A DNA stretch of 25,010 bases from a virus. The translations under genes and the position numbers were made by a program. Numbering within the stretch: position 1 is the stretch's first letter; every line of letters begins with the position of its first letter. A model generated the notes under the pieces. The model had not been told where the DNA came from. It saw nothing but the letters and a program-made list of their open reading frames with translations, and searched no databases. Below, piece after piece: positions 4,811 through 24,727 of the stretch. Location of the stretch: positions 1 through 25,010 of IMG/VR virus record IMGVR_UViG_3300021963_006292. The stretch is one strand, 5' to 3'.

Positions 4811-4977
4811 AAAAAATATTTCTGATTGGGTTGTTGACAATAAGACTATTAACAAACGAGGGAATATTTAATGAAGGAAGAAGACCCCAACCAAAAAAAC
4901 AATTCCCAGAAATCATCAGGTTCATCCGAAGACCAGCAAAAAGAGGTAGGAAAAAAGCATGGTTCTTTATTGAATAA
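4807..4977 (+). CDS. Possible 56-residue overlapping ORF
   Basis: ATG at 4807 overlaps the stop of the preceding gene (ATGA) and is preceded by AGGAAGG, a good ribosome binding site. The product would have a hydrophobic N-terminus (KKIFLIGLLTIRLL) and then a very basic proline/arginine-rich tail. More than 100 bases overlap the next gene in a different frame, so only one of the two may be real, or they are a true nested pair. The start signals are better than the protein sequence, which looks biased. Kept as a low-confidence call. Confidence 0.3.
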   Translation: MKKIFLIGLLTIRLLTNEGIFNEGRRPQPKKQFPEIIRFIRRPAKRGRKKAWFFIE

Positions 4978-5197
4978 ACTAATCTTTATTATCTGCGCAT
5001 CTATAATTGGATTTGTAGGATTAAACTTTGTTGCATGTAATTTTATGATTCCAGGCACAACAAATCACGCAAACCTTTTAGGTGGACTAAAAAATCCCCC
5101 ACCAACAGATTGCAAAGAATCTGAAAGGAGAGGATTTGAAACTTTATTGACTATTCTAACTACAGTAATTGCTCTGAGAACTAGAGTAGAAGATTAG
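4871..5197 (+). CDS. Small membrane protein, possible lysis-related
   Basis: A 108-residue protein: a polar Gln/Ser/Lys-rich N-terminus (1-33), a membrane helix at about 36-58 (LIFIICASIIGFVGLNFVAC), a short loop, and a second weaker hydrophobic segment near the C-terminus (FETLLTILTTVIAL). GAGGGA lies about 8 bases before the ATG. Its stop codon overlaps the stop of the convergent lysozyme frame by 4 bases. Small size, two hydrophobic segments and contact with an endolysin-type gene would fit a holin or antiholin, but no family match is recognised and the role is inference. Confidence 0.6.
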   Translation: MKEEDPNQKNNSQKSSGSSEDQQKEVGKKHGSLLNKLIFIICASIIGFVGLNFVACNFMIPGTTNHANLLGGLKNPPPTDCKESERRGFETLLTILTTVIALRTRVED

Positions 5198-5670
5198 GAA
5201 ACCCAGAGTTTACCTTCAGCACCTCTTCTTCTTAACAATCCAACTTCAACGTCAGTACCAGGATTACGATACATCTTTAAAGTATCAGGAACATTAGACC
5301 ACTCCTTGTTTCTGAGAACTCTACTTATAGTATTAAAACCGGAAGACCCGTAGAAACGAGCACCAAGATTATAAGCAAAAGATAGAAGAGCTCCTTGTTG
5401 ATTTTCATTCATCTCACTCCAGTAAGGAATTTTTTGAAGGTGTGGGAGAAATCTTTGTTCGATATCAAACATCAATAAGTCATCTGCTTCAACTTGAGTA
5501 ATAGTTTCTTTCAGATGAAAAGGTTGACCATTTCTTTTACGAGTAGATCCCCAACCAATAGTAATTGGAAGACCACCAGTAAGAGGATCAGGATAAGCCT
5601 CTAAGTGACATCCTTCAAATTGTTTAATTAGATCGACACCACACTGAGGAACTTGTGATGTCGATTCTAC
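5194..5670 (-). CDS. GH24 lysozyme domain, -1 frame extension of the C39-like gene
   Basis: A 158-residue frame encodes a complete GH24 (T4/P21-type) lysozyme: catalytic Glu in 'DLIKQFEGCHLEAYPDP' (Glu 19 of this segment), then 'LPITIGWGST', a helical middle with 'NENQQGALLSFAYNLGARF', and the C-terminal 'VGLLRRRGAEGKLW' signature. It should cleave the N-acetylmuramic acid-GlcNAc bond of peptidoglycan. The frame has no ATG, GTG or TTG before the catalytic Glu; the first possible starts (TTG 5475, ATG 5472) come after it and would make a dead enzyme. The frame opens exactly at the slippery heptamer ending the upstream peptidase gene, so the likely product is a fusion of about 390 residues made by -1 frameshifting. 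A broken gene or a sequencing indel is the alternative. Confidence 0.85.
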   Translation of the reverse strand, partial: VESTSQVPQCGVDLIKQFEGCHLEAYPDPLTGGLPITIGWGSTRKRNGQPFHLKETITQVEADDLLMFDIEQRFLPHLQKIPYWSEMNENQQGALLSFAYNLGARFYGSSGFNTISRVLRNKEWSNVPDTLKMYRNPGTDVEVGLLRRRGAEGKLWVS

Positions 5671-5676
5671 TTTTTT
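5632..5676 (-). other. Putative programmed -1 frameshift signal
   Basis: Minus-strand A AAA AAG (5676-5670) sits in phase with the last two Lys codons of the C39-like gene, right before its TAG stop. After a 4-base spacer comes an 11-bp stem, ATCGACATCAC (5665-5655) with GTGGTGTCGAT (5642-5632), including one G-U pair, around a 12-base loop. This is the same heptamer and layout as E. coli dnaX. Confidence 0.8.
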
Positions 5677-6365
5677 ACGTCAAAGATTCTGCCCCATCCA
5701 GATGTAGGTCCGTCAGGAGTCCATCTTTTTGCAAGATCAGATCTCTTATATACAGCACCTTTACCATTAGTCACTGCTCCAGTATATCCATCATTCAATG
5801 AACCATAAGGATCGTTCACTACATAATCTTCACCTCTCTTACCAATCACAACTACCATGTGTCCACCTGTGGGACGAGAAAGAGTCCCCCGATGAAGAAT
5901 ACCAATAACAACAGGTCTTCCAGCGGCAAGCTCACGATCAAGATCAGCAAAAGAAAGATTGTAACTGAAGCGTGATTTGATACCGTAAGAGTCCAGAACT
6001 TTTGTCTGAACTGTGTGATCAGTCGTGTCACCGACTGAGAATACTTTTCTAACATAGGCATCATCGCCTTTAGGTCCTACTAGAGTGCCAGGTTTGAAAT
6101 ACTCTAAACACATAGCACAAGCAGAGGAATTACAGGTTCTTTGAGCATCTCTGTAATTGTCTGTCTGTGGATAGAAAGGAACGTTGAGAACTCCTGGAAT
6201 TGTTGGTTCTGCTTTTGTTCTATAAATTCTTACCCAGTTTGCCAGGTCATCCATTAACTCTGGGCATTTATCTGCCAAGTCAACCTCAAGTTGTTCTACT
6301 GCTGCAACATGCTTGGGGTTTTTCTCGTCGTAATACTTAAAGAAATTGTGCAGATCTATTCTCAT
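5667..6365 (-). CDS. C39-like cysteine peptidase, zero-frame product of a frameshift fusion
   Basis: A 232-residue papain-like protein of the peptidase C39-like type. An N-terminal helical region (1-55) leads into 'NVPFYPQTDNYRDAQRTCNS', with the likely catalytic Cys78, then His169 in 'GGHMVVVIG' and the Asn/Asp pair 184-185 in 'VVNDPYG'. Such domains cut peptides, and in phage lysins often peptidoglycan cross-bridges. The protein ends ...FDVKK-stop on A AAA AAG. A -1 slip there adds a complete GH24 lysozyme, giving a two-domain peptidoglycan hydrolase. No signal peptide is seen, so release would need a holin. Two AATAAATA late boxes lie just upstream. Whether the domain is an active peptidase or only binds is open. 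Confidence 0.85.
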   Translation of the reverse strand: MRIDLHNFFKYYDEKNPKHVAAVEQLEVDLADKCPELMDDLANWVRIYRTKAEPTIPGVLNVPFYPQTDNYRDAQRTCNSSACAMCLEYFKPGTLVGPKGDDAYVRKVFSVGDTTDHTVQTKVLDSYGIKSRFSYNLSFADLDRELAAGRPVVIGILHRGTLSRPTGGHMVVVIGKRGEDYVVNDPYGSLNDGYTGAVTNGKGAVYKRSDLAKRWTPDGPTSGWGRIFDVKK

Positions 6366-11176: not shown

Positions 11177-11210
11177 TATTTAGTATAAGGGATGACTTTA
11201 AGAGTGTCAA
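11177..11210 (-). promoter_or_regulatory. Porin promoter, sigma70-type with late-type overlap
   Basis: Minus strand TTGACA (11210-11205), 17 bases, TATACT (11187-11182), overlapped by ACTAAATA (11184-11177). The -35 includes the stop codon of the GT25 gene. Confidence 0.85.
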
Positions 11211-12004
11211 GTGTTTGGAGGAGTAAAAGAACTCTCTACAATTCTACCAAGATAAGGATCATAATCCATCAACTCTTCCACAGACAATTGAGCTCCGTTT
11301 TGAGACCAGAAGTTCATTTGACCATCATAGTTTCCACGATGGAATGCATCAATATGTTCTGGGTGAATAGAAGAACCCAACTCAATTCTATAAAGAAGAA
11401 GAGGAACACTATAAGTATTACCAGAGTTGTAAATTAAATCATCAGCAACAGGACGAGGTTTTACTCCATTGTCAAGTTTATACTTATCATCACGAACATG
11501 AAGTCTTAAAAGTTTTTCGGCATGGTGTCGAGTGATAATATAACAAGCAGTGGAGAATTCATTTACAAATCTCTTGTGAACCTTGACATGAATATCACCT
11601 GTACAAATGATAGCAATCTGTACTACATCCCAATCATAAGGAATGCGACAATAGAAATCATCCCAAGTAAAGTTCCAATACTTGACAAGATCTAAGTTAC
11701 AGTCATCTTCCATAATGATTGCATAAGGACTATCAGAAGTTTCATACCAATATTTGATAGCCTTCAGATGAGATGTAACACAACCAATTTCACCTGAAGT
11801 CATCATCTCAGGATAACAACCTTTGATAATATCACTTAGATCATCTTCTCTACCATCATAAGCAGAGATACGAGTATAGTTTTCAATTTCCCAGTACTTG
11901 AACTGGTTCTCCATATACTCTCTCCTCTCTGGTTGTCCATCCAGATTGAGGTAGTAAATTGGTCCAAAGTTTTTGAGTTTAAACGTTGATTTGTTTTTGT
12001 CCAT
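11207..12004 (-). CDS. GT25-family glycosyltransferase
   Basis: A 265-residue protein of the GT25 (LPS-type) family. The N-terminal 'GPIYYLNLDGQPERREYMEN' is the family's usual opening; 'GEIGCVTSHLKAIKYW' and 'AIIMEDDCNLDLVKYW' follow, the latter carrying the acidic metal-binding motif. It adds a sugar (often galactose or glucose) to a surface glycan from a nucleotide sugar, in the cytoplasm. ATG 12004 overlaps the stop of the GT15 gene (TAATG). It is the last gene of the 14-gene glycan operon; its stop codon lies inside the porin -35 box and no terminator is seen, so the operon may read into the porin gene. Confidence 0.88.
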   Translation of the reverse strand: MDKNKSTFKLKNFGPIYYLNLDGQPERREYMENQFKYWEIENYTRISAYDGREDDLSDIIKGCYPEMMTSGEIGCVTSHLKAIKYWYETSDSPYAIIMEDDCNLDLVKYWNFTWDDFYCRIPYDWDVVQIAIICTGDIHVKVHKRFVNEFSTACYIITRHHAEKLLRLHVRDDKYKLDNGVKPRPVADDLIYNSGNTYSVPLLLYRIELGSSIHPEHIDAFHRGNYDGQMNFWSQNGAQLSVEELMDYDPYLGRIVESSFTPPNT

Positions 12005-12792
12005 TATACTGTATAAACTGCACCGTGCTGATATGTAAAACCTTGTACTGGAATAACGTGTTCTGGTTCCATGAGAAGATTTACACCAAGATATTTAATA
12101 GGGGCATCACCCCATCTCTTAGTATAAAATCCACCAGTTTTATCCAACTCATTATAGAATCTCATGTATTCACTTGTCAAGAACCATGACACTTTACCCA
12201 ACTCAAAGTTGGTATAGAACATCATGCCTTCTTCAATAAAGTTTTCTGGAATCAATTTGTTTACTGTCTCCCAAAGACCTTCAATTACCTTCAGATTATC
12301 TTTCTGAATGGCAGGAGCAATAAATCCATAGTAACATCCAACATCCTCTGCCCACTTAAAGATATCATAGTTAAGTGGAGTATGTATAAAAGAATCTGTA
12401 TCAAGTCTCAAGTAATAATCATATTCCTTTATAATACTATTATTATAAAGTTCACCAGAAAAAAATCTACACATATGGCGATATCCCATAGAGAATCCTG
12501 GATGTCCCCAATCAACAGGACCATTACCATGTGTAGGATGTGGGAAGAACTCTGGAATCTGATCTAAGATTTCTTGAGGATAATCAGGAAGATTAAACTC
12601 AATCGTCTCGTATCTAAGATTTAGATTAGTTTGGACCTTAGATTTGTATTCTTCAAAGGATTCTTCACAGAATACTAATACATCAGTACTATTAGTATAC
12701 GGTATAAGATTTTCTTCTACTAACCTTAAAGATTTATTGAAGTCTTCTACATCTTGATCAGAGGATCTTACAAGATAAAGGATACAGTTCAT
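12004..12792 (-). CDS. GT15 (Kre2/Mnt1-like) mannosyltransferase homologue
   Basis: A 262-residue protein resembling fungal alpha-1,2-mannosyltransferases. Hallmarks are 'YRHMCRFFSGELY', an acidic metal-binding 'YYLRLDTDSF', and especially 'TNFELGKVSWFLTSEYMRFY' followed by 'DKTGGFYTKRWGDAP', which is very close to the GT15 block 'TGGFYxxRWGDAPxxSL'. It would transfer mannose or a related sugar from GDP-sugar. It lacks the N-terminal membrane anchor of fungal enzymes, so it should be cytoplasmic. ATG 12792 overlaps the upstream stop (ATGA); an in-frame GTG 12 bases earlier is less likely. The GT15 family is best known from fungi, so this member is notable. Confidence 0.85.
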   Translation of the reverse strand: MNCILYLVRSSDQDVEDFNKSLRLVEENLIPYTNSTDVLVFCEESFEEYKSKVQTNLNLRYETIEFNLPDYPQEILDQIPEFFPHPTHGNGPVDWGHPGFSMGYRHMCRFFSGELYNNSIIKEYDYYLRLDTDSFIHTPLNYDIFKWAEDVGCYYGFIAPAIQKDNLKVIEGLWETVNKLIPENFIEEGMMFYTNFELGKVSWFLTSEYMRFYNELDKTGGFYTKRWGDAPIKYLGVNLLMEPEHVIPVQGFTYQHGAVYTV

Positions 12793-14177
12793 AACATCTG
12801 CCACTCTTTATATGGAATCATATTGTTACTGTGTGTTTGAGTAAATGATTTTGGATAGATTACCTTATCGTTTGGTTGATTTGGATCTAAAAATGCTGCC
12901 CAAAAACTAAATGTAGATACATGCAAAATATGATATTCACATTCTACCATCTTTCTAAGTGATTGGAAAGCATCACCAACAAAGATCTCAAAGTTCTGAT
13001 TAAAGTTTTGACGGAACCAACTCAGTTTACTTCGTGCCATTCTATTATCATCAGAGAAGATATAAACTGCAGAATCTTGAGGGATTATCATCAAAGCCTT
13101 TTCATAGAACTCATCATCAACATAACCATTTACATGATCATCTGCTGGTCTTGTACAGAATCTAAGGTGAAGTGATACTGTGTTTAGTTTTGTTTTAGTT
13201 CCTAGAGATAGTTTCTCTCTTACATAATCAAGATTCTCTGCTGTAGAAAACCTAAACATATCATTCACGACAAACTTAGTATCAAAGTTTGCCTGAAGAT
13301 TGCCCTGCCAATTTAAGTTTGGAAAACATGAAACCATATCCTTATGAGATCCATCATGTCCACCGAGAAGTCTATCTGAATTATAAGATGATGGATACTT
13401 ACCACCACCATTCCATAAGTCCCAAGTTCCAAACTTTGGTTCTGGAAGATTAAATTTCTTGCAGAAGGAAATTACCTCTGCCATTTGGAAGAGATTATTT
13501 CCAAGTCCACCATGAAGTGATGTTGTAATGGTCTCTTCTTTAAAATCTACAGGAAGAGAAAGTGCCTTCTGAGCACTAGCAACACTAATATCAACTCCAA
13601 TAACATCAAGACAGCAGAGTTGATATTGAGTATCACTAAAGAATGTAGGAGAATCAACAACTAAAAAGTTATTAGGATACTCCTCTTGCAACTCATTTGC
13701 AATCTTATAGTATTCATCCCAATATCGTTCAGTTGCATCAAATTCATCTTTAGAATCACTCAGGTTTGGAAATTGATCAACAGCATAACGATTATGTCCA
13801 AGTCCAAGAGTTCTATCTTTTACATAACAGGGGTTACGATATCCCCAAGAAGTTGCAAGAGATTTAATAGAGTGTTCTCTTCTTCCTCTCAAACATAAAA
13901 ACATCACATCTGGATGAAGTTCCACAAACTCAGGAACATACTTCAGATATGAATGTGTGATATTTGTAGTAGTATCATGAAGTGAAACTCTTCTCAGTCT
14001 CTCTTCTTTAGATAGAGATTCAGAATCCCAAATCAATCCATTATCATTCCAGGTCTCAAAACTATTCTGATACTTTGGGCCTCCACCTTTGTACTTCACT
14101 GGCATGAATCTTGAGAGAAGATAATTCATCCTCAAGAATCCACAAGCACCCGATCCAATTACATGAAAGTTACTCAT
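12789..14177 (-). CDS. Sulfotransferase-like domain fused to GT11 domain
   Basis: A 462-residue two-domain protein. Residues 1 to about 225 look like a P-loop sulfotransferase fold ('FHVIGSGACGFLRMNYLLSR' as phosphate loop; 'VMFLCLRGRREHSIKSLATS' as the 3'-phosphate segment), though the match is weak. Residues about 235-462 are a GT11-type fucosyltransferase domain: 'TTSLHGGLGNNLFQMAEVIS' (GGLGNxxFQ motif), 'VSLHLRFCTRPADD' in place of the usual HxRRGD, 'VYIFSDDNRMARS' and 'HVSTFSFWAAFLD'. GT11 enzymes use GDP-fucose-like donors. The HxRRGD motif has lost its second Arg-Gly, so specificity may differ. It may sulfate and glycosylate the same glycan. Confidence 0.75.
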   Translation of the reverse strand: MSNFHVIGSGACGFLRMNYLLSRFMPVKYKGGGPKYQNSFETWNDNGLIWDSESLSKEERLRRVSLHDTTTNITHSYLKYVPEFVELHPDVMFLCLRGRREHSIKSLATSWGYRNPCYVKDRTLGLGHNRYAVDQFPNLSDSKDEFDATERYWDEYYKIANELQEEYPNNFLVVDSPTFFSDTQYQLCCLDVIGVDISVASAQKALSLPVDFKEETITTSLHGGLGNNLFQMAEVISFCKKFNLPEPKFGTWDLWNGGGKYPSSYNSDRLLGGHDGSHKDMVSCFPNLNWQGNLQANFDTKFVVNDMFRFSTAENLDYVREKLSLGTKTKLNTVSLHLRFCTRPADDHVNGYVDDEFYEKALMIIPQDSAVYIFSDDNRMARSKLSWFRQNFNQNFEIFVGDAFQSLRKMVECEYHILHVSTFSFWAAFLDPNQPNDKVIYPKSFTQTHSNNMIPYKEWQML

Positions 14178-14823
14178 AAACTACACCACCACTCAATAAA
14201 ATACCTCGTTCAATCCAAGGTTTTTTACAAATTTCAAACTTGGATTTATGGTCATTACGAATAAAGTAAAGATTTCCTGCTTGTGATCCTACAAATCCAG
14301 ACATTCCAATAAATTCATATCCAAATTCTGTACCAAATTGTACCAATTCTTGAACGCTAGAACCTGAATGATTTCTTTTTTCAATCAAATCTCCATTTGA
14401 TTCTACGATTAAAATGATTGGTTTATATTTTCCAAGACTTTTAGCAACATTCAAATCATTACCATCAACATCAATTGAAGCAAGAACAAAATTTTCATTT
14501 GTAACCTCAAAATTAGACCTATTAATAATAGTTTCTAATGAATTATCACTTGTAACAAACTCATTAAAGCAGGAAACATTTTTATACTTTTCCTCTAGAG
14601 TTTGTTTTTGTAATCTACTGGTAGATTCTACTAATATGGACTTAAATTTTTCATTGTTACACCATAGATTAGCACAATTGCTATCAAAAAATCCATCCCA
14701 AGCACCAATTTCCAATACAATTCCTTCACAAATGTTTAGATGTTTTAACAATTGATCATTGATTCCATCTTCTCCATTTGCGGAGTATGTATTGTCAGAA
14801 TAAGTATAAAGAAAGTCATTCAT
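14170..14823 (-). CDS. SAM-dependent methyltransferase, FkbM-like
   Basis: A 217-residue class I methyltransferase-like protein. 'YSANGEDGINDQLLKHL' then 'GIVLEIGAWDGFFDSNCANL' form the SAM-binding motif I region, and 'NFVLASIDVDGNDLNVAKSL' the motif with the acidic residues. The layout resembles FkbM-type enzymes that O-methylate sugars. Its start overlaps the stop of the upstream gene by 8 bases and its end overlaps the next gene, so it is translated within the glycan operon. The substrate is inferred from context: a hydroxyl of the growing surface glycan. Confidence 0.8.
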   Translation of the reverse strand: MNDFLYTYSDNTYSANGEDGINDQLLKHLNICEGIVLEIGAWDGFFDSNCANLWCNNEKFKSILVESTSRLQKQTLEEKYKNVSCFNEFVTSDNSLETIINRSNFEVTNENFVLASIDVDGNDLNVAKSLGKYKPIILIVESNGDLIEKRNHSGSSVQELVQFGTEFGYEFIGMSGFVGSQAGNLYFIRNDHKSKFEICKKPWIERGILLSGGVVYE

Positions 14824-15631
14824 GAGTCAATCCTCTTAATTCATATTCCCAACGAACATCAGTATTGATTTTTGGTTCATTATTTTCATCAATTATTTGA
14901 CCTACAAATATCCCATATTGCATAGGTTCATGTTCTGGAAATGGACGACTATCTTGATTAGTTGGATAGATTTCACGAAGTTGATTATAAACTTCTTTCT
15001 CAACATAATTGATTAATCCAACACCATATGCATTTTCCCAACTTACATGATCTCCTGGATGATGAGTTGGTTGACCAGTGACTTTTGAATGTCTCCAGTG
15101 ATCATGACACAGATGATCAAACTTAATCACAGGCCAAATTAAGTTATGAAGAACTTTCTGATCATCCTCTCGATTGACTGCTGATGGATTATCTAAATCA
15201 ATCTTACCATAACGTTCATGAAATAATTTATTATTTACTCCAAACATCCCTGCCATAATCGTATACCCATGATTATGGCAGTCTCTCATTAAGTGAAAAG
15301 ATTTATCCGATTGAATCCATTCATCAACTGCTCTGCGTTCTCTCCAACTCAATCTACTATCACAATCTCTACTAATCCAAAAGTCAACACAGTCATCAAT
15401 AAACGGACGGAACCTCCAGTTCAATCCATCGTAAGAGTTGTTCCTACGACAGATAAAAACTTCAGCATCATGATCTTTGAGTTGATAAACATATTCCTCA
15501 GGAACATCCTCAGCAACATAAAACCTCGCAATCCAATCTGGATAGATTTCTTTTGCGAGTCTTGCGTTTTCTACTGCACCAACACAATAAAGAGGATTAT
15601 CTCCAAAAAGACTAAACGTTATCAGACGCAT
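14816..15631 (-). CDS. Glycosyltransferase-like protein (GT-A type)
   Basis: A 271-residue protein starting 'MRLITFSLFGDNPLYCVGAV', typical of a group of uncharacterised GT-A-like proteins. 'FWISRDCDSRLSWRERRAVD' supplies a D-x-D metal-binding motif, followed by 'FHLMRDCHNHGYTIMAGMFG'. ATG 15631 is chosen because it matches this opening; the longer frame to 15709 lies inside the neighbouring methyltransferase gene. The start overlaps that gene by 20 bases. It most likely transfers a sugar to a surface glycan; donor and acceptor are unknown. Confidence 0.75.
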   Translation of the reverse strand: MRLITFSLFGDNPLYCVGAVENARLAKEIYPDWIARFYVAEDVPEEYVYQLKDHDAEVFICRRNNSYDGLNWRFRPFIDDCVDFWISRDCDSRLSWRERRAVDEWIQSDKSFHLMRDCHNHGYTIMAGMFGVNNKLFHERYGKIDLDNPSAVNREDDQKVLHNLIWPVIKFDHLCHDHWRHSKVTGQPTHHPGDHVSWENAYGVGLINYVEKEVYNQLREIYPTNQDSRPFPEHEPMQYGIFVGQIIDENNEPKINTDVRWEYELRGLTHE

Positions 15632-16208
15632 ACCAAGTTCCATAATAACAATCAGCACTGTGGAATCCTGATTCAGATCCACCTTTAAAAATCTTACCAA
15701 AATCACCAAGAACTTCTGTGAAAGTTTCTTCAGTAATCAAATGTGGATGTGCAGTATCTACACCACTATTGATGCTTTCAAATACACGAATCACTTTAGA
15801 AGTTTTCTTTGCAATTTCTAATTGTTCCTTAGGATCAATTACGTGCTGAATAACATTAAAGAACCATGTCTCATCAATCTGTTCCTCGATTTCCAAATCT
15901 TCATACGCACCAGCAACGATCTCTACTCCAATATCCTCGTAATCTTTTCTAATCTCAGAAGGCCAACGATCAATCAAAGGTTCTACAAGAATGCCTCTCT
16001 TAAAATTTCCTTTGGTGTGAAGAATAGATCCCCTAGGTCCTCCACCAACTTCCACAATTACTTTGTCTTTAAAATCTTCTTCATAATTAATCTCAAGATA
16101 CCTCTCAATAATTCTAGAAGCATGACTATATGCTTCTAATCTAAGATCTTGATGATGTGTAAATTCTGTGTCTTGAGCAAGTTGCCAACGATCCAAATCA
16201 ATTTTCAT
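15612..16208 (-). CDS. SAM-dependent methyltransferase
   Basis: A 198-residue class I methyltransferase: 'KDKVIVEVGGGPRGSILHTK' is the SAM-binding motif I, 'FKRGILVEPLIDRWPSEIRK' holds the acidic residue for the ribose, and 'DETWFFNVIQHVIDPKEQLE' is the usual motif IV region. It belongs to the UbiE/Methyltransf_11-like type seen in capsule and LPS clusters. It begins one base from the stop of the GT2 gene (TAATG) and overlaps the next gene by 20 bases. Probable role: methylation of a sugar in the glycan made by this operon. Confidence 0.82.
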   Translation of the reverse strand: MKIDLDRWQLAQDTEFTHHQDLRLEAYSHASRIIERYLEINYEEDFKDKVIVEVGGGPRGSILHTKGNFKRGILVEPLIDRWPSEIRKDYEDIGVEIVAGAYEDLEIEEQIDETWFFNVIQHVIDPKEQLEIAKKTSKVIRVFESINSGVDTAHPHLITEETFTEVLGDFGKIFKGGSESGFHSADCYYGTWYASDNV

Positions 16209-17020
16209 TAAACCAATTCCCTATGTTCAATAATTCTTCGAGTATTTATTAGATCCTTATGACGGTCATAAAAGATCTTTGTATTTTTATGATGTGCTTT
16301 CAGAAGCCATGGAGCAGGAGATCCAGTTACCCTAGTTCCACCCCAAGAGTCTTCACTTTCATAATCAATCCAATAAGCACCAACAACTTTACCAAGTTCT
16401 TTGTAAGCACGGTAACAAAGATCATGATCATCCATATCTTGAGGAGCAAATGCTTCATCAAGATAGTTTAGTTTCTTAAGATCTTCGTGATCAATCATCA
16501 GAGGACCACGATTAACAGAACAACGAACTGCAAATGTGTCTCTTGACAATCCTTGTTTCCTATCGGCATGGTCCGTATGGTCTACAATATCACACCAACA
16601 ATCATCAAGATCATCAGTCATTCCAAGATGTTTTGAGTTTGGATTTGAGATCCAGTTATGAGCAGTTCTAGATGTTACTGCAAATACATCATCAAATGCC
16701 TTGAATGGCTTTTCCATTCTCACATTCCAACCCTTTTCTTTGATAATCATATCATCTTGAATGATAATGATTTTATCTCCTTTTGCTGCTTTCATTCCAA
16801 GATTATTAGCAGTTGTCTCAAAGACATTAGGAGCATAAAGAAACTTTTTATTGGCAGGTGTGCCACTCAAAGTATCCCAAATAACTTGTTCAGAATTATC
16901 AGTGCATCCATCAATAACTACGATAAGTTCATAAGGTTCTGTTGTATTTTCAACAATGCCTTTGATGACTTTTTCGATTAACCATTCCTTATTGTGGACA
17001 GTAAGAACTATGCTATGCAT
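16208..17020 (-). CDS. GT2-family glycosyltransferase
   Basis: A 270-residue GT-A enzyme of family 2. 'MHSIVLTVHNKEWLIEKVIK' and 'YELIVVIDGCTDNSE' are the classic N-terminal blocks, with 'KGDKIIIIQDDMIIKEKGW' giving the DxD-like metal site and 'EAFAPQDMDDHDLCYRAYKE' the C-terminal acceptor/catalytic block. It transfers a sugar from a nucleotide donor to a surface-glycan intermediate in the cytoplasm. Start overlaps the upstream gene by 8 bases; the stop touches the next start. No membrane helix, so it is a monosaccharide transferase rather than a synthase. Confidence 0.9.
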   Translation of the reverse strand: MHSIVLTVHNKEWLIEKVIKGIVENTTEPYELIVVIDGCTDNSEQVIWDTLSGTPANKKFLYAPNVFETTANNLGMKAAKGDKIIIIQDDMIIKEKGWNVRMEKPFKAFDDVFAVTSRTAHNWISNPNSKHLGMTDDLDDCWCDIVDHTDHADRKQGLSRDTFAVRCSVNRGPLMIDHEDLKKLNYLDEAFAPQDMDDHDLCYRAYKELGKVVGAYWIDYESEDSWGGTRVTGSPAPWLLKAHHKNTKIFYDRHKDLINTRRIIEHRELV

Positions 17021-17747
17021 CTTTAATACTCATTAAGAACGAATCAATTTCTCTACCAAAACCTCTTCCACCTCTATCGTACCAATAATCATAATCGCAT
17101 TCTACATAATTCCTATACTCTTGTCCACCAACGGTAAGACCATCACGAATTGCTATGTTGGTTAGCACACTTTGATCATTCCTATGAGCAACAAAACCAT
17201 CCAATTCTTCACCAAGAGTGCTCACATCATTATTAATAATCTGAGGATCGGTGCAGAACTCTAACCACTCAGAAACTGTTTTGATAGATTCTTCACAAAC
17301 CTTCCATACCATAAATCCAACTTCGAGTTGATTGGAATTGTGATAATCTTCCTCATCACAATTCATCTTAATGAAACAGTCTCTCTTGGTATATTGTCCG
17401 TTGATATTATTTCCAACTAACAGAAGACACTGATCATCTTCAGTAACAGTATTCTCAACATAAGATTTCAATCCAGGAGAGAACATATCTCCACAGTCAC
17501 AGTAGATTATAAAGTCACCTTCGTTTGAAGACTTAAGAACATCAAGAATGAAATATGGTTTCCAGATCCACCAACCTGCACCAGTTGACTGATTAAGGAT
17601 TTGCTTATTGTTCTGATAAAAATCAGTGCTTTCTAGATTTTCTCTATTAAATGGATGATGAACAAATCCTTCCTTATGAGTTTGATGAAGAAACTTTTGC
17701 TGTTCTGCAAACTTTTCATCGGCATAAGTTACAAGATGCCAGTTCAT
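17013..17747 (-). CDS. Capsular-type glycosyltransferase-like protein
   Basis: A 244-residue protein with the signature 'TGAGWWIWKPYFILDVL' and 'DFIIYCDCGDMFSP', found in a family of putative GT-A sugar transferases common in capsule and O-antigen clusters. The D-x-x-D of 'DCGD' is the likely metal site. The C-terminal part contains 'HRNDQSVLTNIAIRDGL', also typical. Overlaps its upstream neighbour by 4 bases (ATGA) and the GT2 gene by 8. Precise sugar unknown. Confidence 0.75.
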   Translation of the reverse strand: MNWHLVTYADEKFAEQQKFLHQTHKEGFVHHPFNRENLESTDFYQNNKQILNQSTGAGWWIWKPYFILDVLKSSNEGDFIIYCDCGDMFSPGLKSYVENTVTEDDQCLLLVGNNINGQYTKRDCFIKMNCDEEDYHNSNQLEVGFMVWKVCEESIKTVSEWLEFCTDPQIINNDVSTLGEELDGFVAHRNDQSVLTNIAIRDGLTVGGQEYRNYVECDYDYWYDRGGRGFGREIDSFLMSIKDA

Positions 17748-18625
17748 TTGATTCTCTCCTTCACATATTCTTGATTCTCATAGTACTCAATCAGTTGCTC
17801 TTTAGTCAAATTCTTAAGGTACTCCCACAACTGATTATTGTTTTGCATGTGAGGATTATGATACCAAGAGTTTTGAGTTCTTTGATGTTCTAGATGATAA
17901 GCATGATTATCTACCCTACCAATATTATATCCAAGAACTTTCCATCTATGATGCCTTTCCACATCCTCAGGAGCATAGGCAATAAACCCTTCATTCTCTA
18001 AGTACCCGTCAATATAAACTTGACGGTTAAAGAACTGAACCATTCCATACTCAGCCCATCCTAATCCTTGATTGCTTGGATAATAGAAGAATCGATCATC
18101 AAAACAAGTAGAATTATACCCAGATCCAATAAACCTGGAAACAAACTCATCGTTCTCAAAGTTATCCATATCCTCCTGAGTTTCAATAGTAAATCCAAGA
18201 TTCACTTTTCGTTCACCGTGATTTCCAAACCGATAAGGGTATACAACATCACTATCACCATGAAGCATCTCAACTGCTTGAGTATAGGAATCTAATGGAA
18301 GAATGATATCAGTGTCATAATTTACTACAATCTCAGTAGATGCTTCCATCACCATATCGTTCAGGACTTTTGTACGATGAAAAGAATCATCTGTACGAGT
18401 TTCTTCTTCGAAGATATGTCGAAGATTACTTACATCAACCAACCTCTTAATGATTGGTAGTGCATACTCTTCAAATCTGTGCTCAGAATCTACTTCCTTG
18501 ATAATCACATTAGTATCAAAGTGATGAAGAAGATAAGAAGTTGTAAGAATTACGTTCCTAAGTCTATCTCCAGTATCAATCCTTAGAGGAATAATAAAGG
18601 TAGTATTTCTCAAATCAGTTTTCAT
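17744..18625 (-). CDS. GT-A glycosyltransferase, chondroitin-polymerase-like
   Basis: A 293-residue protein: 'TTFIIPLRIDTGDRLRNVIL', 'EASTEIVVNYDTDIILPLDS' (D-T-D metal-binding motif) and 'LGWAEYGMVQFFNRQVYIDG' with 'GFIAYAPEDVERHHRWKVLG', which resembles the galactosyltransferase C-terminal block where the acceptor is bound ('ED.E...R'). This arrangement is seen in GT2/GT7-like polysaccharide enzymes. It overlaps the upstream GT11 gene by 11 bases and the next gene by 4. It probably extends the glycan backbone; the exact linkage is unknown. Confidence 0.82.
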   Translation of the reverse strand: MKTDLRNTTFIIPLRIDTGDRLRNVILTTSYLLHHFDTNVIIKEVDSEHRFEEYALPIIKRLVDVSNLRHIFEEETRTDDSFHRTKVLNDMVMEASTEIVVNYDTDIILPLDSYTQAVEMLHGDSDVVYPYRFGNHGERKVNLGFTIETQEDMDNFENDEFVSRFIGSGYNSTCFDDRFFYYPSNQGLGWAEYGMVQFFNRQVYIDGYLENEGFIAYAPEDVERHHRWKVLGYNIGRVDNHAYHLEHQRTQNSWYHNPHMQNNNQLWEYLKNLTKEQLIEYYENQEYVKERIK

Positions 18626-19424
18626 TAATCATTCTCCATTCTTCAGGGAACAAGTCTTTAGTAGATTTATCTGCGTTATTAGGACCGAACCATTTGTTGG
18701 GGTAGATCACAGTCTTATTCGTATTTTGTGATAGCCAAGCACCCCACCAAGAAAATGTTGAGTTGGCAATAATGTAATCAGAACATAAGGTCATCAAACA
18801 CATATCAACATATGGATGTCCAGTCTCAGCAACTAAGAATCGGTCATCTTCGAATAACTTCTGAGATTTACACCACTTAGGATCATCTGAGAAGATAACA
18901 ACCTGTCGATCACTATTAAACTCTTTTAGTGCATTCTCATAGTAACTCAACGAAAGATTATAATGATTTCCTGAGTTAATTAAGAAATCTCCTCTCCGAA
19001 TATGAAGAGCAATAGGATTATCTAATAGTGGTTTTGCTTCTTCACATGCATCATAGTATTCTTTCTTAAAAGTAAAGTCTTTTCGAATGTCTTTCTCAAT
19101 ATGCTTGAAGTACTTTTCACTTTGAAAATATCCTACAAGGGAAACTCCATCAGGACAATTATTAAAAAGATCTTCATCAAAACTAAAAGATTGTTCAGTT
19201 CTAGCAGAATCAGCCAAAAGAAATCCAACACTATCTGGTTGGATTTCAAAAGCATCAAACAACTCAATCCGAAGAGTGTTTCCCAATCCGTCTTTAAAAG
19301 AGTTATCATGTTGAGGAATAGTGAACTGGTATCCTCTATTCCTAGCAACTCCTTTTATAGCAGCATATTGAAACATCTGGTTTCCCAGTTGCCCCATTCT
19401 ACCAAGATAGTTTAATCCAATCAT
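18615..19424 (-). CDS. GT11 fucosyltransferase-like protein (second copy)
   Basis: A 269-residue GT11 protein with all hallmark motifs: 'GRMGQLGNQMFQYAAIKGVA', 'IALHIRRGDFLI' (HxRRGD, donor phosphate binding), 'QVVIFSDDPKWCKSQ' and 'NSTFSWWGAWLS'. Family members transfer L-fucose from GDP-fucose in alpha-1,2 linkage; GDP-L-galactose is a close analogue, and a GDP-mannose 3,5-epimerase lies in the same operon. ATG 19424 is chosen over an upstream in-frame start because it gives the typical MIGLNYLGRMG opening. It overlaps the paralogue upstream by 26 bases; the two proteins are clearly related and probably arose by tandem duplication. Confidence 0.93.
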   Translation of the reverse strand: MIGLNYLGRMGQLGNQMFQYAAIKGVARNRGYQFTIPQHDNSFKDGLGNTLRIELFDAFEIQPDSVGFLLADSARTEQSFSFDEDLFNNCPDGVSLVGYFQSEKYFKHIEKDIRKDFTFKKEYYDACEEAKPLLDNPIALHIRRGDFLINSGNHYNLSLSYYENALKEFNSDRQVVIFSDDPKWCKSQKLFEDDRFLVAETGHPYVDMCLMTLCSDYIIANSTFSWWGAWLSQNTNKTVIYPNKWFGPNNADKSTKDLFPEEWRMINEN

Positions 19425-20241
19425 CGGGAAGTAAATCTTTTGTATCGTTATCTTTTGAAAGTTGAGGACCAAACCAAGGATCTGGTGCGATCACTGGATT
19501 TGTGCGGGGATTTTGTAACCATGCACCCCACCAACTCAAAGTACTCGGAGATATAATAGCACCATTACACAAACTCATCAAGCACAAATCAGTATAGGGA
19601 ATGAATGATTTTCTGTAAACTCCATCACCTTCCATACACTTATGAGAATATTGTTCTACATTCTCATTAATTAAGAACCTTTCTCCAGAGAAAAACTCTT
19701 GTTCCTTACACCAAGCAACATCATCACTACAAATAAGAACTGTAGCATCATCATCAAAGTAATCAAGTGCCTTTGAGTAATAGTCAAATGTAGGAACTGG
19801 ATGAAGATGTTCTCTACCCACATTATCTCCACGACGAACATGGAGAAAGATAATTTTTTCAAACTGACTGATGAATTCTTTACATGGTTTTAGAATACCA
19901 TCAATAAACTCAAAGTCTTCACGAATCTTATCTTCAATATGTTTGAAATATTTTTCACTTTGAAGATATCCATCTAGATTTGTATTATCTTGAAAGGTAT
20001 CGAACAACTCTTCATCGAAATGAAAATGAGCCTCATCCCGAGTAGGATGAGGCACCGTACCAATATGCTTTAGGTTCTTAAGTTTGAACGGATGATGTAT
20101 TCCATAATTAGCAGTTCGTGCTCCATCTGGAGGAATACACCATTCGTATCCATGTTTTTCTGCAATACCTTGAAGAGCAGCATACTGAAAGAGTTGATTA
20201 CCAAATCTTCCATTTACACCAAGTCGATTATACCCGATCAT
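19399..20241 (-). CDS. GT11 fucosyltransferase-like protein (first copy)
   Basis: A 280-residue GT11 protein: 'GRFGNQLFQYAALQGIAEKH', 'IIFLHVRRGDNVG', 'TVLICSDDVAWCKEQ' and 'SPSTLSWWGAWLQNP'. Shares the 'GYLQSEKYFKHIE' and 'WFGP' blocks with its downstream paralogue, differing mainly in the loop after HxRRGD, which probably sets acceptor choice. Likely adds L-fucose or L-galactose from GDP-sugar. ATG 20241 overlaps the dehydrogenase stop (ATGA). Confidence 0.93.
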   Translation of the reverse strand: MIGYNRLGVNGRFGNQLFQYAALQGIAEKHGYEWCIPPDGARTANYGIHHPFKLKNLKHIGTVPHPTRDEAHFHFDEELFDTFQDNTNLDGYLQSEKYFKHIEDKIREDFEFIDGILKPCKEFISQFEKIIFLHVRRGDNVGREHLHPVPTFDYYSKALDYFDDDATVLICSDDVAWCKEQEFFSGERFLINENVEQYSHKCMEGDGVYRKSFIPYTDLCLMSLCNGAIISPSTLSWWGAWLQNPRTNPVIAPDPWFGPQLSKDNDTKDLLPDDWIKLSW

Positions 20242-21392
20242 AAGTTTACCACAAAATATGGTTCTGTAATATTTTCTTCTTTATCTACAAACTTAACTCG
20301 ATCTCCATAAGAGGTAGTCATGTAATCATAGATTTGATCAGTAACTTTCTTATCATTATGAACATAAACAGTATGACCTCTATCGAGAAGATCTAAACAG
20401 AGACGATACTGTTGACTCTCGGTAAGAATATCTGTTCCTTTCTTATAAGTGATTGAATCAAAATAGAAAGGTTTCTTACTTGAGTTCATCTTTTCAAAAT
20501 AATCACATACAAACTTAGCATGTTGATTATTGATTTCGTCAGTTACTGTTCCAAGATTATATTCCAATCCCACCTTCTTAGCAAATGCTGCGAAGGATCT
20601 ATTGTCTCTAGGAAGACATGGACCACCATATCCAAACCCATAACCAAGATATTTCCTACCGATTCTGCTATCAGTGCCTACAGCAGTAAGAACTGAACTA
20701 ACTTCATCTCCACATCCAGCATGATGAAGAACATCACCGAGCATATTTGCGTAACTAATCTTGGTTGTCAAGAAGCAGTTAATAGCAATCTTAGTGATTT
20801 CTGCTGCGGTTGTTGACATAGAACAGACAATTGCACGAGTTGTTTGAATCTTCTCATACAACTTTCTAATATCAGAAATAACCTTATCGTTATCTGCAAA
20901 AGGATCTGCTCCGAGCAAAACCATATCAGCAGTGCGAAGATCATTAATGATAGATCCTTGTGCAATGAACTCTGGATTATAGAAAACTTTTACATTGCTT
21001 GGAAGTTGCTTTCTAAAGTTATCACAATCACCAGGATTAGTTGTGCATCCAACTACAAAATATTTTTTCGCAGTTACATCTTGAAAATCACTAACAACTT
21101 GCCACACAGCAGAGACATCATAAGATCCATCTTCGAGAGATGGAGTTGCCACAAGAGTGTAGATGAGATCACACTCATCAATAACCTCTTTGTTGTTTGT
21201 GGTTGCTCTAAAGTTTGTAGCAGCCTTAAGAAAATTTTCTACTTCTGGTTCATGTGTCTTGATCTTTCTTGCGTTCAAGTCATTCACATAATCCTCTCGG
21301 ATATCTGAAACAAGAACGTCATACCCTGCTGCTTCACACAGCAGGGCAAAACAAATACCAAGTCTACCAGCACCAATTACGCCAATTTTCAT
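20238..21392 (-). CDS. UDP-glucose/GDP-mannose dehydrogenase family protein
   Basis: A 384-residue nucleotide-sugar dehydrogenase. Rossmann motif 'MKIGVIGAGRLGICFALLCE' at the N-terminus; 'EITKIAINCFLTTKISYANM' supplies the conserved Asn and Lys; 'GYGFGYGGPCLPRDNRSFAA' holds the catalytic Cys (the usual motif is GGxCLPKD). It oxidises the C6 hydroxyl of a nucleotide sugar to a carboxylate using two NAD+, most likely UDP-glucose to UDP-glucuronate. Its NAD+ need is noteworthy because the next upstream gene is nadE. ATG 21392 overlaps the nadE stop (ATGA). Confidence 0.9.
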   Translation of the reverse strand: MKIGVIGAGRLGICFALLCEAAGYDVLVSDIREDYVNDLNARKIKTHEPEVENFLKAATNFRATTNNKEVIDECDLIYTLVATPSLEDGSYDVSAVWQVVSDFQDVTAKKYFVVGCTTNPGDCDNFRKQLPSNVKVFYNPEFIAQGSIINDLRTADMVLLGADPFADNDKVISDIRKLYEKIQTTRAIVCSMSTTAAEITKIAINCFLTTKISYANMLGDVLHHAGCGDEVSSVLTAVGTDSRIGRKYLGYGFGYGGPCLPRDNRSFAAFAKKVGLEYNLGTVTDEINNQHAKFVCDYFEKMNSSKKPFYFDSITYKKGTDILTESQQYRLCLDLLDRGHTVYVHNDKKVTDQIYDYMTTSYGDRVKFVDKEENITEPYFVVNL

Positions 21393-22129
21393 AGTTTGAA
21401 TGTAGGAATAGGATTCATTTTATGTTGATTCATTTGACTAAACTTAATAAGTGGTTCTAGTCCTGGACCTGATCCAGTCTCCATTGCCTCTTCAAGTTCA
21501 GCATAGGAAGCACCAATTTGATCTTCATCGGTTCTTCCATCATCCCATAGTCCGTCAGTAGGAGAGGCATCAATAATGCGTTGATCTACACCAAAATGCC
21601 TGCCAAGTTCCCAAACTTCAGTCTTATAGAGATCTGCGATAGGAGCAATATCAACTCCACCGTCACCATATTTAGTATAAAACCCTACACCATAATCTTC
21701 AACTTTATTTCCTGTACCGACAACGATACCACCAACAGATGTGGCAACTTGATAAAGAGTTACCATGCGAAGACGAGAACGACTATTAGCAAGAGCGTGT
21801 GTGTCAGTTCCAAGTTCTCTCATGGTGAACTTAAATGTTTCAAAAACTTTGGTAAGATCAAACTTATTTGTAATTACATTACTAAAGTTTGACTGAAGCC
21901 ATTCAAGGTGAGCATCAGAAAGAGTTTCTTGTTCTTCCTTCTGATGAATTGGCATACCCAAAGCATAAACAGGAAGACCTGTTTTAGCAGCAAGAGTTGA
22001 TGAAACTGCCGAGTCAATGCCTCCAGAAACACCAATTACAAATGATTTAATATTAAATTGTTGAGCATATTCTTTTAACCAAGAAACAATGCGAGTTTCA
22101 AGTTCGGAATAGTTTTGAATGCGGTTCAT
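21389..22129 (-). CDS. nadE: NAD synthetase (NH3-dependent type)
   Basis: A 246-residue NadE-type ATP pyrophosphatase. The P-loop 'FVIGVSGGIDSAVSSTLAAK' adenylates deamido-NAD; 'VVGTGNKVEDYGVGFYTKYG' and 'DIAPIADLYKTEVWELGRHF' are the usual NadE blocks, and 'SPTDGLWDDGRTDEDQIGAS' the C-terminal one. No glutamine-amidohydrolase domain, so it uses ammonia or a host partner. It makes NAD+ from deamido-NAD+. Within a glycan operon the same fold could instead act on a sugar, but the sequence looks like true NadE. ATG 22129 is preferred over an in-frame TTG at 22138. Confidence 0.88.
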   Translation of the reverse strand: MNRIQNYSELETRIVSWLKEYAQQFNIKSFVIGVSGGIDSAVSSTLAAKTGLPVYALGMPIHQKEEQETLSDAHLEWLQSNFSNVITNKFDLTKVFETFKFTMRELGTDTHALANSRSRLRMVTLYQVATSVGGIVVGTGNKVEDYGVGFYTKYGDGGVDIAPIADLYKTEVWELGRHFGVDQRIIDASPTDGLWDDGRTDEDQIGASYAELEEAMETGSGPGLEPLIKFSQMNQHKMNPIPTFKL

Positions 22130-22134
22130 GATAA

Positions 22135-23187
22135 TCAAATAATAGAATCTACTTGTTCTTTAATCCATGCGTAAGTTTTAGAGATACCCTCTTCAAGAGT
22201 CATGGAGTAATCCCATCCTAACTCTTTTCTGATTATATCGTTGTTACTATTGCGACCACGAACACCAAGAGGTGCATCAAGTTTATGTTGTCGTTTAACA
22301 GGAACACCAGCAACCTTCGAAACGGTATCGACAAGTTGATTGATTGTAACCATTTCTTCGGAACCAATATTCACAGGTCCGATGAAATTAGAATTCATCA
22401 TACGACGAGTTGCTTCAATACACTCATCAATAAAGAGAAAAGAACGTGTCTGTTCACCATCTCCCCAGACTTCAATCGTTCCACCAACACCAGGAAGTTC
22501 TGCTACTTTCCTACAAATAGCTGCAGGTGCTTTTTCCCTACCACCATTCCAAGTTCCTTCTGGTCCGAAAATATTGTGGTATCGAGCAACACGTACAGGA
22601 ATATCATAGTTGCGATGATAAGCAAAGTACAACCTTTCTGAAAAGAGTTTTTCCCAACCATATTCGGAATCTGGGTTAGCAGGATATGCGGACTCTTCAC
22701 GACAATCAGGATTGTCTGGATCAAGTTGGTTATGCTCAGGATACATGCAAGCAGAACCAGAATAGAAGATCTTGGTTACATTCTTACCAAGAAGATCATT
22801 AAACTTTCTTACAGACTCAAGAACATTTAGGTTGATTGTTGCGGAGTTGTGCATAATATCAGCATCATTTTCTCCACTGAAAACAAAACCAGCACCACCC
22901 ATGTCAGCAGCAAACTGATAGATTTCATCAAATGCCTGAAGATATCGTGAGGGAACGAACTTATAAAAGTTTCCTGCATCTCCTTTATATTGAATAACTC
23001 TTTCTACGAGTGCAACATCTCTCAGGTCCCCAATAATAAACTCATTTGCCTCAGTCTTTGAAAACTCAGGATACTTAAGATCCACACCACGAACCCAATA
23101 TCCTTCTGCTCGAAGTCGTTTAACCATGTGACTTCCAATAAATCCACCAGCACCAAGCACAAGTGCTTTCTTTACATATTGACCCAT
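22135..23187 (-). CDS. gme: GDP-mannose 3,5-epimerase-like SDR
   Basis: A 350-residue extended SDR. 'KKALVLGAGGFIGSHMVKRL' is the NAD-binding loop; 'IYQFAADMGGAGFVF' and 'IFYSGSACMYPEHNQ' are diagnostic of plant-type GDP-mannose 3,5-epimerase, with the 'YGWEK' Tyr-Lys pair, and 'HNIFGPEGTWNGGREKAPAA' the substrate-binding block. The reaction turns GDP-D-mannose into GDP-L-galactose (and GDP-L-gulose). First gene of the 14-gene glycan operon, behind a TTTACA/TATAAT promoter. The host must supply GDP-mannose, since no mannose-activating gene is seen here. Length and key residues are normal. Confidence 0.92.
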   Translation of the reverse strand: MGQYVKKALVLGAGGFIGSHMVKRLRAEGYWVRGVDLKYPEFSKTEANEFIIGDLRDVALVERVIQYKGDAGNFYKFVPSRYLQAFDEIYQFAADMGGAGFVFSGENDADIMHNSATINLNVLESVRKFNDLLGKNVTKIFYSGSACMYPEHNQLDPDNPDCREESAYPANPDSEYGWEKLFSERLYFAYHRNYDIPVRVARYHNIFGPEGTWNGGREKAPAAICRKVAELPGVGGTIEVWGDGEQTRSFLFIDECIEATRRMMNSNFIGPVNIGSEEMVTINQLVDTVSKVAGVPVKRQHKLDAPLGVRGRNSNNDIIRKELGWDYSMTLEEGISKTYAWIKEQVDSII

Positions 23188-24201: not shown

Positions 24202-24203
24202 TA

Positions 24204-24276
24204 TGCTCCTTGAGGGGATCGAACCCACCTTCGCCGCTTTATGAGAACGGTCCATTCACCAGATTGGTAAAGGAGC
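24204..24276 (-). tRNA. tRNA with anticodon CAU (Met or Ile2)
   Basis: A 73-base cloverleaf: acceptor GCTCCTT/AAGGAGC with discriminator A, D-arm CCA/TGG with GG in the loop, anticodon stem CCGTT/AGCGG and loop CTCATAA, T-loop TTCGATC with one T-T mismatch in its stem. No CCA is encoded. CAU may be elongator Met, or Ile after lysidine modification; the sequence alone does not decide. Two bases separate it from the next tRNA. Confidence 0.88.
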
Positions 24277-24278
24277 AA

Positions 24279-24369
24279 TAGGGACACTGGGATTCGAACC
24301 CAGACCTCGCGCTAATCTGGCGCTAATACGGATTATAAGACCGCTGTTCTACCGTTGAACTATGCCCCC
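24279..24369 (-). tRNA. Unusual tRNA with anticodon UAU and a 24-base variable region
   Basis: A 91-base tRNA-like gene: acceptor GGGGGCA/TGTCCCT (two G-U pairs), D-stem GTTC/GAAC, anticodon loop CTTATAA (UAU, Ile AUA codon) on a stem with a U-U mismatch, T-stem CTGGG/CCCAG with TTCGAAT loop. The variable region is 24 bases, made of an imperfect 11-base tandem repeat (ATTAGCGCCAG/ATTAGCGCGAG). Ile tRNAs normally have a short variable loop. It could be functional or decaying. Confidence 0.7.
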
Positions 24370-24408
24370 ATAAAGACAGGTCTATTGTAGAGGACCTGGA
24401 ACTCTATG

Positions 24409-24636
24409 TCAAGAACCTTCTTCGTGGTCGGTGTGTATTCGTATTATATCCTCACTCACACCAACTTCTTCAAAGACTTGTACCACTTCTTTATATGGCA
24501 CCATAACTGCGCTACCGTGCTCACTTGTTATGATAAATGATTCTCCTTGCTCTACTCTGTTCATAAGATTGTCAAAGTCAGATTGGAATTCTTCTACAGT
24601 GAATGATTGAAGTTCAGAAATTTCTTGCATTATCAT
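24409..24636 (-). CDS. Phd/YefM-like antitoxin
   Basis: A 75-residue protein with the Phd/YefM antitoxin pattern: 'QSFTVEEFQSDFDNLMNRVE' (N-terminal dimerisation and DNA-binding half) then 'GESFIITSEHGSAVMVPYKE', the conserved GExxxIT...GxxxAxxxP segment. In toxin-antitoxin systems this protein neutralises a Doc, YoeB or RelE-type toxin and represses its own operon. No toxin gene lies beside it; it is flanked by tRNA genes. A stand-alone phage antitoxin could block a host abortive-infection toxin. ATG 24636 (or 24630) is chosen; the longer frame reads through tRNA-Pro. No clear ribosome binding site. Confidence 0.8.
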   Translation of the reverse strand: MIMQEISELQSFTVEEFQSDFDNLMNRVEQGESFIITSEHGSAVMVPYKEVVQVFEEVGVSEDIIRIHTDHEEGS

Positions 24637-24653
24637 AAAGTGAGTTTTATGAG

Positions 24654-24727
24654 TCGGAGTGATAGGATTCGAACCTACGACCCTCTGTTCCCAAAACAGA
24701 TGCGCTACCAAGCTGCGCTACACTCCG
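24654..24727 (-). tRNA. tRNA-Pro (UGG)
   Basis: A 74-base cloverleaf: acceptor CGGAGTG/CACTCCG with discriminator A, D-arm GCGC/GCGC with TTGGTA loop, anticodon stem TCTGT/ACAGA and loop TTTGGGA (UGG), T-arm TAGG/CCTA with TTCGAAT loop. No CCA encoded. It begins about 16 bases past the expected start of a consensus promoter. Confidence 0.95.

Follow-up and report, generated by a model that had tools for sequence, protein, structure and literature searches.

A putative dnaX-type -1 frameshift signal between the C39-like peptidase and lysozyme frames of cyanophages

A dnaX-type programmed -1 ribosomal frameshift very probably yields two products from a single cyanophage locus, namely, a C39-like peptidase and a fusion of this peptidase with a GH24 lysozyme. 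The locus contains an in-phase slippery heptamer of the X XXY YYZ class, a putative stimulatory structure that lies a few nucleotides downstream and is conserved by covariation, and overlapping frames, the downstream one of which is conserved and start-less. Ribosomes translating the peptidase mRNA would pause at A AAA AAG, held by a hairpin that begins about 4-6 nt further on. In some of these encounters, both lysine tRNAs would slip back by one base, avoiding the stop, and the slipped ribosomes would continue (...DVKK-VESTSQ...) into the lysozyme, giving a fusion of 390 residues; the unslipped ribosomes would stop and give a peptidase of 232 residues. The comparisons below suggest that slippage does occur and that it is the work of the ribosome and not of RNA polymerase. 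The ratio of the short and long products would then be set by RNA, and both products presumably act as cell-wall-degrading lysis enzymes.

Layout of the locus

The window, i.e., the whole stretch of DNA that was analyzed, is a virus record of 25,010 bases with cyanophage gene content. The features of the locus are as follows.

5667..6365, minus strand: ORF of the C39-like (papain-fold) peptidase, the 0-frame product; 232 aa, ending GAC GTA AAA AAG TAG
5670..5676, minus strand: slippery heptamer A AAA AAG, in phase, immediately 5' of TAG
5667..5669, minus strand: 0-frame stop TAG, the first codon past the heptamer
5669-5666, minus strand: spacer TAGA between the heptamer and the stem, 4 nt
5632..5665, minus strand: putative stimulatory stem-loop; 12 bp (5665-5654 with 5643-5632), 10-nt loop
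5194..5670, minus strand: GH24 lysozyme part in the -1 frame; 158 codons and a stop (5196-5194), without its own start codon
5680..5682, minus strand: TGA closing the -1 frame just 5' of the heptamer, as read from the sequence
4871..5197, plus strand: 108-aa membrane protein, a possible holin, tail-to-tail with the lysozyme; conserved neighbour

The initial annotation had described a C39-like frame ending in AAA AAG TAG, with the heptamer in phase and a 4-base spacer, and these coordinates were verified on the window. The 11-bp stem with one G-U pair that it had proposed is present as well; one further A-U pair makes it 12 bp, with a loop of 10 nt. The two open frames of the window overlap by just one codon plus the heptamer and the stop. 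Since the TGA at 5682-5680 shuts the -1 frame upstream, a -1 shift leading into the lysozyme would be confined to the heptamer. The lysozyme frame reads GTA GAA TCG... from position 5670. Counted in codons of the lysozyme domain, the catalytic Glu is number 9 and the first start-like codon past the heptamer, a TTG, is number 56. The window lysozyme thus has no ATG, GTG or TTG ahead of the catalytic Glu, as had been claimed.

With the 108-aa membrane protein as query, tblastn gave 97 hits in the loci that had been fetched. In the loci checked, e.g., S-PM2 and L094, it is encoded on the opposite strand directly past the lysozyme; in S-PM2, it is unannotated. Searches of Pfam and PHROG produced no match, and the protein is a candidate holin or lysis-linked protein.

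Elsewhere in the window, genes of PsbA, PsbD, ferredoxin, a high-light protein and PstS were recognized from translations, as was a long series of glycosyltransferase, sugar dehydrogenase, epimerase and NAD-synthetase-like genes (11207-23187, minus strand), which suggests phage-encoded synthesis of surface sugars. The region 24203-24727 (minus strand) encodes tRNA-Met, tRNA-Ile(TAT) and tRNA-Pro; a small antitoxin-like ORF (24409-24711) lies between and overlaps these tRNAs.

Predicted proteins

The 0-frame product matches Pfam PF13529 (Peptidase_C39_2) with E=1e-12 and consists of an N-terminal helical segment of ~50 aa followed by a C39-like domain (residues 60-187). Residues Q67, C78, H169 and D185 are invariant in 20 relatives. 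The AlphaFold2 model has a pLDDT of 79, and the best Foldseek hits are the C39-like peptidase 3erv and the C39 domains of PCAT1/ComA. By the Pfam match, the catalytic Cys-His-Asp with Gln, and the modeled fold, the protein is predicted to be a C39-like cysteine peptidase, the substrate of which may be peptidoglycan.

The 158-codon -1 frame was originally described as a complete GH24 lysozyme including its catalytic Glu. Consistent with this, it matches Pfam PF00959 (Phage_lysozyme) with E=3e-21 and shows a T4-like Glu ... Asp ... Thr catalytic pattern, and its nearest relatives in the PDB are GH24 endolysins. The Pfam match and these residues together argue for the assignment of the -1 frame product to the GH24 phage lysozymes.

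Conservation of the arrangement among relatives

Relatives were gathered from phage isolates and about 160 IMG/VR loci, and the 150 loci with a peptidase followed by a lysozyme on the same strand formed the comparison set. These loci were selected for their resemblance to the window, and the sample should not be taken as unbiased. After the removal of duplicates, 75 loci had an in-phase X XXY YYZ heptamer beside the peptidase stop (73 A AAA AAG and 2 T TTT TTT). Five loci with an overlapping ATG or GTG start were subtracted, and the remaining 70 distinct loci are referred to as the frameshift class; its heptamers are A AAA AAG in 68/70 loci and T TTT TTT in 2/70, both S-CAM7 isolates. The isolate S-PM2 also belongs to this class. 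S-PM2 is represented by two genome records and S-CAM7 by several, and the junction was read in S-PM2 and two S-CAM7 isolates.

All 70 loci of the frameshift class have the lysozyme in the -1 frame, and in each of them it lacks an ATG. The 0-frame stop is located immediately 3' of the heptamer in 60/70 loci and 1-2 codons further in the remainder; in 61/70 loci, the -1 frame opens just 10-13 nt 5' of this stop. Comparison of homologues, which had been put forward as a check on the initial annotation, showed that the heptamer, the stem and the frame break are conserved in the 70 distinct loci, with compensatory changes in the stem. Relatives with a continuous frame, or with seven A, had been named as evidence that would point to an indel; among the 150 relatives, a continuous frame was found in only 3 fetched loci, which belong to two other lineages (ACG-2014f and L124). 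A search of IMG/VR found no second copy identical to the junction of the window, and bacterial genomes yielded no homologue beyond a C39-domain relative, which occurs in six of them, mostly cyanobacterial ones.

Slippery heptamer and downstream hairpin

The codon 5' of AAA AAG is GCA, GTA, ACA, ATA, GAA or TCA, i.e., its third base is always A and the amino acid is A, V, T, I, E or S. In the same ORFs, GTA accounts for 27% of Val codons and GCA for 40% of Ala codons. The two lysines are encoded by AAA AAG without exception, though lysine codons are used at ~60:40 AAA:AAG. Because NNA and AAA AAG are fixed while the amino acid varies, selection acts on the nucleotides of the heptamer and not on the encoded residues. 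In S-CAM7, the slippery run is T8, with a different stem located 5 nt downstream.

The significance of the hairpin derives from its conservation across relatives and not from the fold of the window alone, which is modest in comparison with shuffles (z -2, 8/200). The best helices beginning 1-9 nt past the heptamer have a mean score of 25.4 vs 14.5 in dinucleotide shuffles. With the 3' side of the stem anchored on the lysozyme GV(D/E)LIK motif, three main hairpin registers were defined (R=10, 13 and 16), exactly one codon apart. Pairing occurs in 91-95% of cells in register and in 10-53% after sliding by 1-4 nt; this contrast is partly by construction, as loci were given their register by best pairing, which does not apply to the compensatory changes. 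The formal counts of pairs with changes on both sides are 6/12 and 5/13, and neither the paired fraction nor the covariation score of the real sequences was reached in any of 500 shuffles. The stems of separate lineages have no common sequence (CAACACCAC/GTGGTGTTG; GCCAACTAAC/GTTAGTTGGC; AGTTCTACTCC/GGAGTAGAACT; in S-CAM7, GTAGAACC/GGTTCTAC), and the loop length ranges from 5 to 44 nt across loci. A few loci (L078, L047 and L021) have weak helices.

On the tree of the two-domain protein, the registers are interleaved: all eleven labels together need 28 changes vs 65 in shuffles. It follows that stems were rebuilt or slid many times, or that recombination took place at the junction, while the frame break persisted.

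A search of Rfam matched no frameshift family and returned only chance-level miRNA/snoRNA matches. A Shine-Dalgarno-like stimulator is not clearly present at the dnaX spacing. Most loci have GGGG 15 nt upstream, which is regarded as protein-constrained because it is fixed by Trp-Gly codons, and a minority of loci have AAGG, AGGA or GGAG 10-12 nt upstream of the heptamer.

The same nucleotides bear on the possibility that RNA polymerase, slipping on the A (or T) run, produces mRNAs that have gained or lost a base and in which the two frames are fused. Most loci do have a run of six A, and the run of eight T in S-CAM7 is long enough to make transcriptional slippage thinkable there. However, transcriptional slippage generally favours runs longer than six, and the tract in 68/70 loci, six A closed by an invariant G, is short for such a process. 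Moreover, RNA polymerase would need no helix, whereas a conserved helix a few nucleotides downstream and the strict phase of the heptamer fit slippage of the ribosome. Transcriptional slippage is therefore considered improbable, and programmed ribosomal frameshifting is the preferred reading.

Linkers, start codons and age of the frame break

The distance from the heptamer to the lysozyme varies from 23 to 68 nt in 57 different linkers, all of which, in 70/70 loci, have a length of 2 mod 3 and contain zero stops; the linker therefore behaves as translated read-through from the peptidase. A lysozyme with an internal start, or one started by termination-reinitiation near the stop at a near-cognate GTG, TTG or ATT, would not need linkers that are in frame in every locus. 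In 32/70 loci, a GTG or TTG does occur ahead of or at the catalytic region, and sister lineages do start their lysozyme at ATGA/GTGA overlaps, but 38/70 loci, the window among them, have no ATG, GTG or TTG between the heptamer and the catalytic region. A separate start would also leave the heptamer, the helix and the NNA constraint unexplained, and the helix is missing where a real start exists (5/5). Independent initiation is accordingly judged very improbable, slightly more so than slippage of RNA polymerase.

The five loci just mentioned, which include S-SRM01 (L002/L003), L026, L031, L033 and L082, have kept A AAA AAG, carry a start codon (ATG or GTG) that overlaps the stop, and show helices at shuffle level. 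Judging by these sequences, they are candidate natural intermediates in the loss of frameshifting.

Since the junction is a homopolymer and fused relatives exist, the break could be imagined to be an indel from sequencing or assembly, or a recent frameshift mutation in a gene undergoing decay. However, the same break recurs in 70 distinct loci of independent samples, including the genomes of the isolates S-CAM7 and S-PM2 (the latter with two records), which excludes a sequencing indel, and the lysozyme is conserved (at least 57% identity within the frameshift class), so that this explanation has a negligible probability.

The fall of lysozyme identity within the class to 57% indicates that the arrangement is old. 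In the deposited records, where the arrangement went unrecognized, the 'lysin' of S-PM2 and S-CAM7 is a truncated ORF from an internal start codon that omits the active site with the catalytic Glu, an error of the type expected if no true start exists.

Other architectures in the family

In ACG-2014f and L124, the peptidase and lysozyme are encoded in one continuous frame; since such natural fusions exist, a peptidase-lysozyme fusion is plausible as a functional protein. ATGA/GTGA overlaps are found in the sister lineages S-SRM01, L026, L031, L033, L082, L071, L080 and L146. In a clade of 19 rows, the lysozyme is encoded separately: each gene has a start codon, in most cases within an ATGA overlap, and its own N-terminal segment of ~50 residues. 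In DSL-LC02/03 (L008, L006), the separate lysozyme bears a copy of the ~50-aa N-terminal segment of the peptidase, pointing to a portable small domain. Other separate lysozymes have a different N-terminal segment (MxIKFxDAVKxHxDLPHQxxAW...), and for the larger clade the comparison with that of the peptidase in hhalign (P=0.002, probability 12%) is only suggestive of relatedness. The order is reversed in S-CREM1 (L010) and L086/L148, where the lysozyme precedes the C39-like peptidase, in S-CREM1 as one ORF.

Frameshifting is the commonest form in the sample, which was picked by similarity to the window. Plausibly, the lysozyme acts in most cases while joined to an N-terminal partner, and frameshifting provides a share of fused enzyme and leaves free peptidase; the overlapping-start lineages indicate that an attached partner is not always required.

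Implications

The phages concerned infect abundant marine and freshwater Synechococcus. In these phages, the very production of a lysis enzyme appears to hinge on frameshifting. If the muramidase of this widespread lysis enzyme is made only through the slip, the slip rate would fix its dose relative to the peptidase, and perhaps also the time at which lysis begins, and both could follow the translation state of the host (e.g., charging or modification of lysine tRNA); we put this forward as a tentative idea, with the odds somewhat against it. For annotation, the truncated lysins of S-PM2 and S-CAM7 can be corrected. In addition, a frameshift, an overlapping start, a continuous fusion and separate genes all occur among close relatives, and the hairpin is shifted by whole codons with the slippery site fixed. 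This family therefore offers a natural series on the gain, keeping and loss of programmed frameshifting.

Comparison with known systems

No description of a cyanophage lysin made by frameshifting was found in the papers searched. The 2013 GeneTack survey mentions no lysozyme or endolysin case, and neither does the accessible part of the review by Atkins et al. 2016 (PMC5009743). In DNA phages, -1 frameshifting has been reported mainly for tail and other structural genes (PMC7260188). The conserved phage -1 shift of the tail-assembly chaperone G/GT likewise gives short and long products, but it concerns another gene and serves a structural rather than a lytic purpose. In IS3-family/IS911-type transposases, an A-rich slippery heptamer with a structure directs a shift between two ORFs that gives the OrfAB fusion of OrfA with a downstream domain. 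The cyanophage locus resembles these in layout; it differs in that it is not a transposable element and its predicted products are lysis enzymes.

Two polypeptides per lysin locus are also known from Lactococcus phage vML3, mycobacteriophage Ms6 (LysA) and Lactobacillus phage Sabazios (split lysin). Lysins are counted among frameshifted phage genes, with reference to vML3, in the PRFect article (PMC10885494), and the small vML3 product is described as holin-like in another paper (PMC3111421). The second product of Ms6 LysA comes from an internal in-frame start (PMC3111421), and for the Sabazios split lysin the authors weighed slippage and found no slippery sequence (PMC7260188). None of the three is reported to join a peptidase and a lysozyme via a conserved -1 site. 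The continuous C39-GH24 fusion of ACG-2014f (PHROG 3617) has the same two domains in the same order, but in a single frame and with no separate peptidase product.

The closest likeness is that to E. coli dnaX, whose natural shift site is A AAA AAG according to the review cited above (Atkins et al. 2016, PMC5009743). The initial annotation had likened the heptamer, spacing and stem to the dnaX signal, and the likeness stands: the heptamer is the same and in phase, a hairpin lies a few nucleotides downstream, and a -1 shift would take place at the lysine pair. In contrast to dnaX, the upstream Shine-Dalgarno stimulator is not clearly present in the cyanophage loci. Furthermore, the dnaX shift shortens the product, whereas the cyanophage shift would avoid a stop right past the heptamer and add a whole enzyme. 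We file the cyanophage case as programmed -1 frameshifting, a known mechanism, in an unusual gene.
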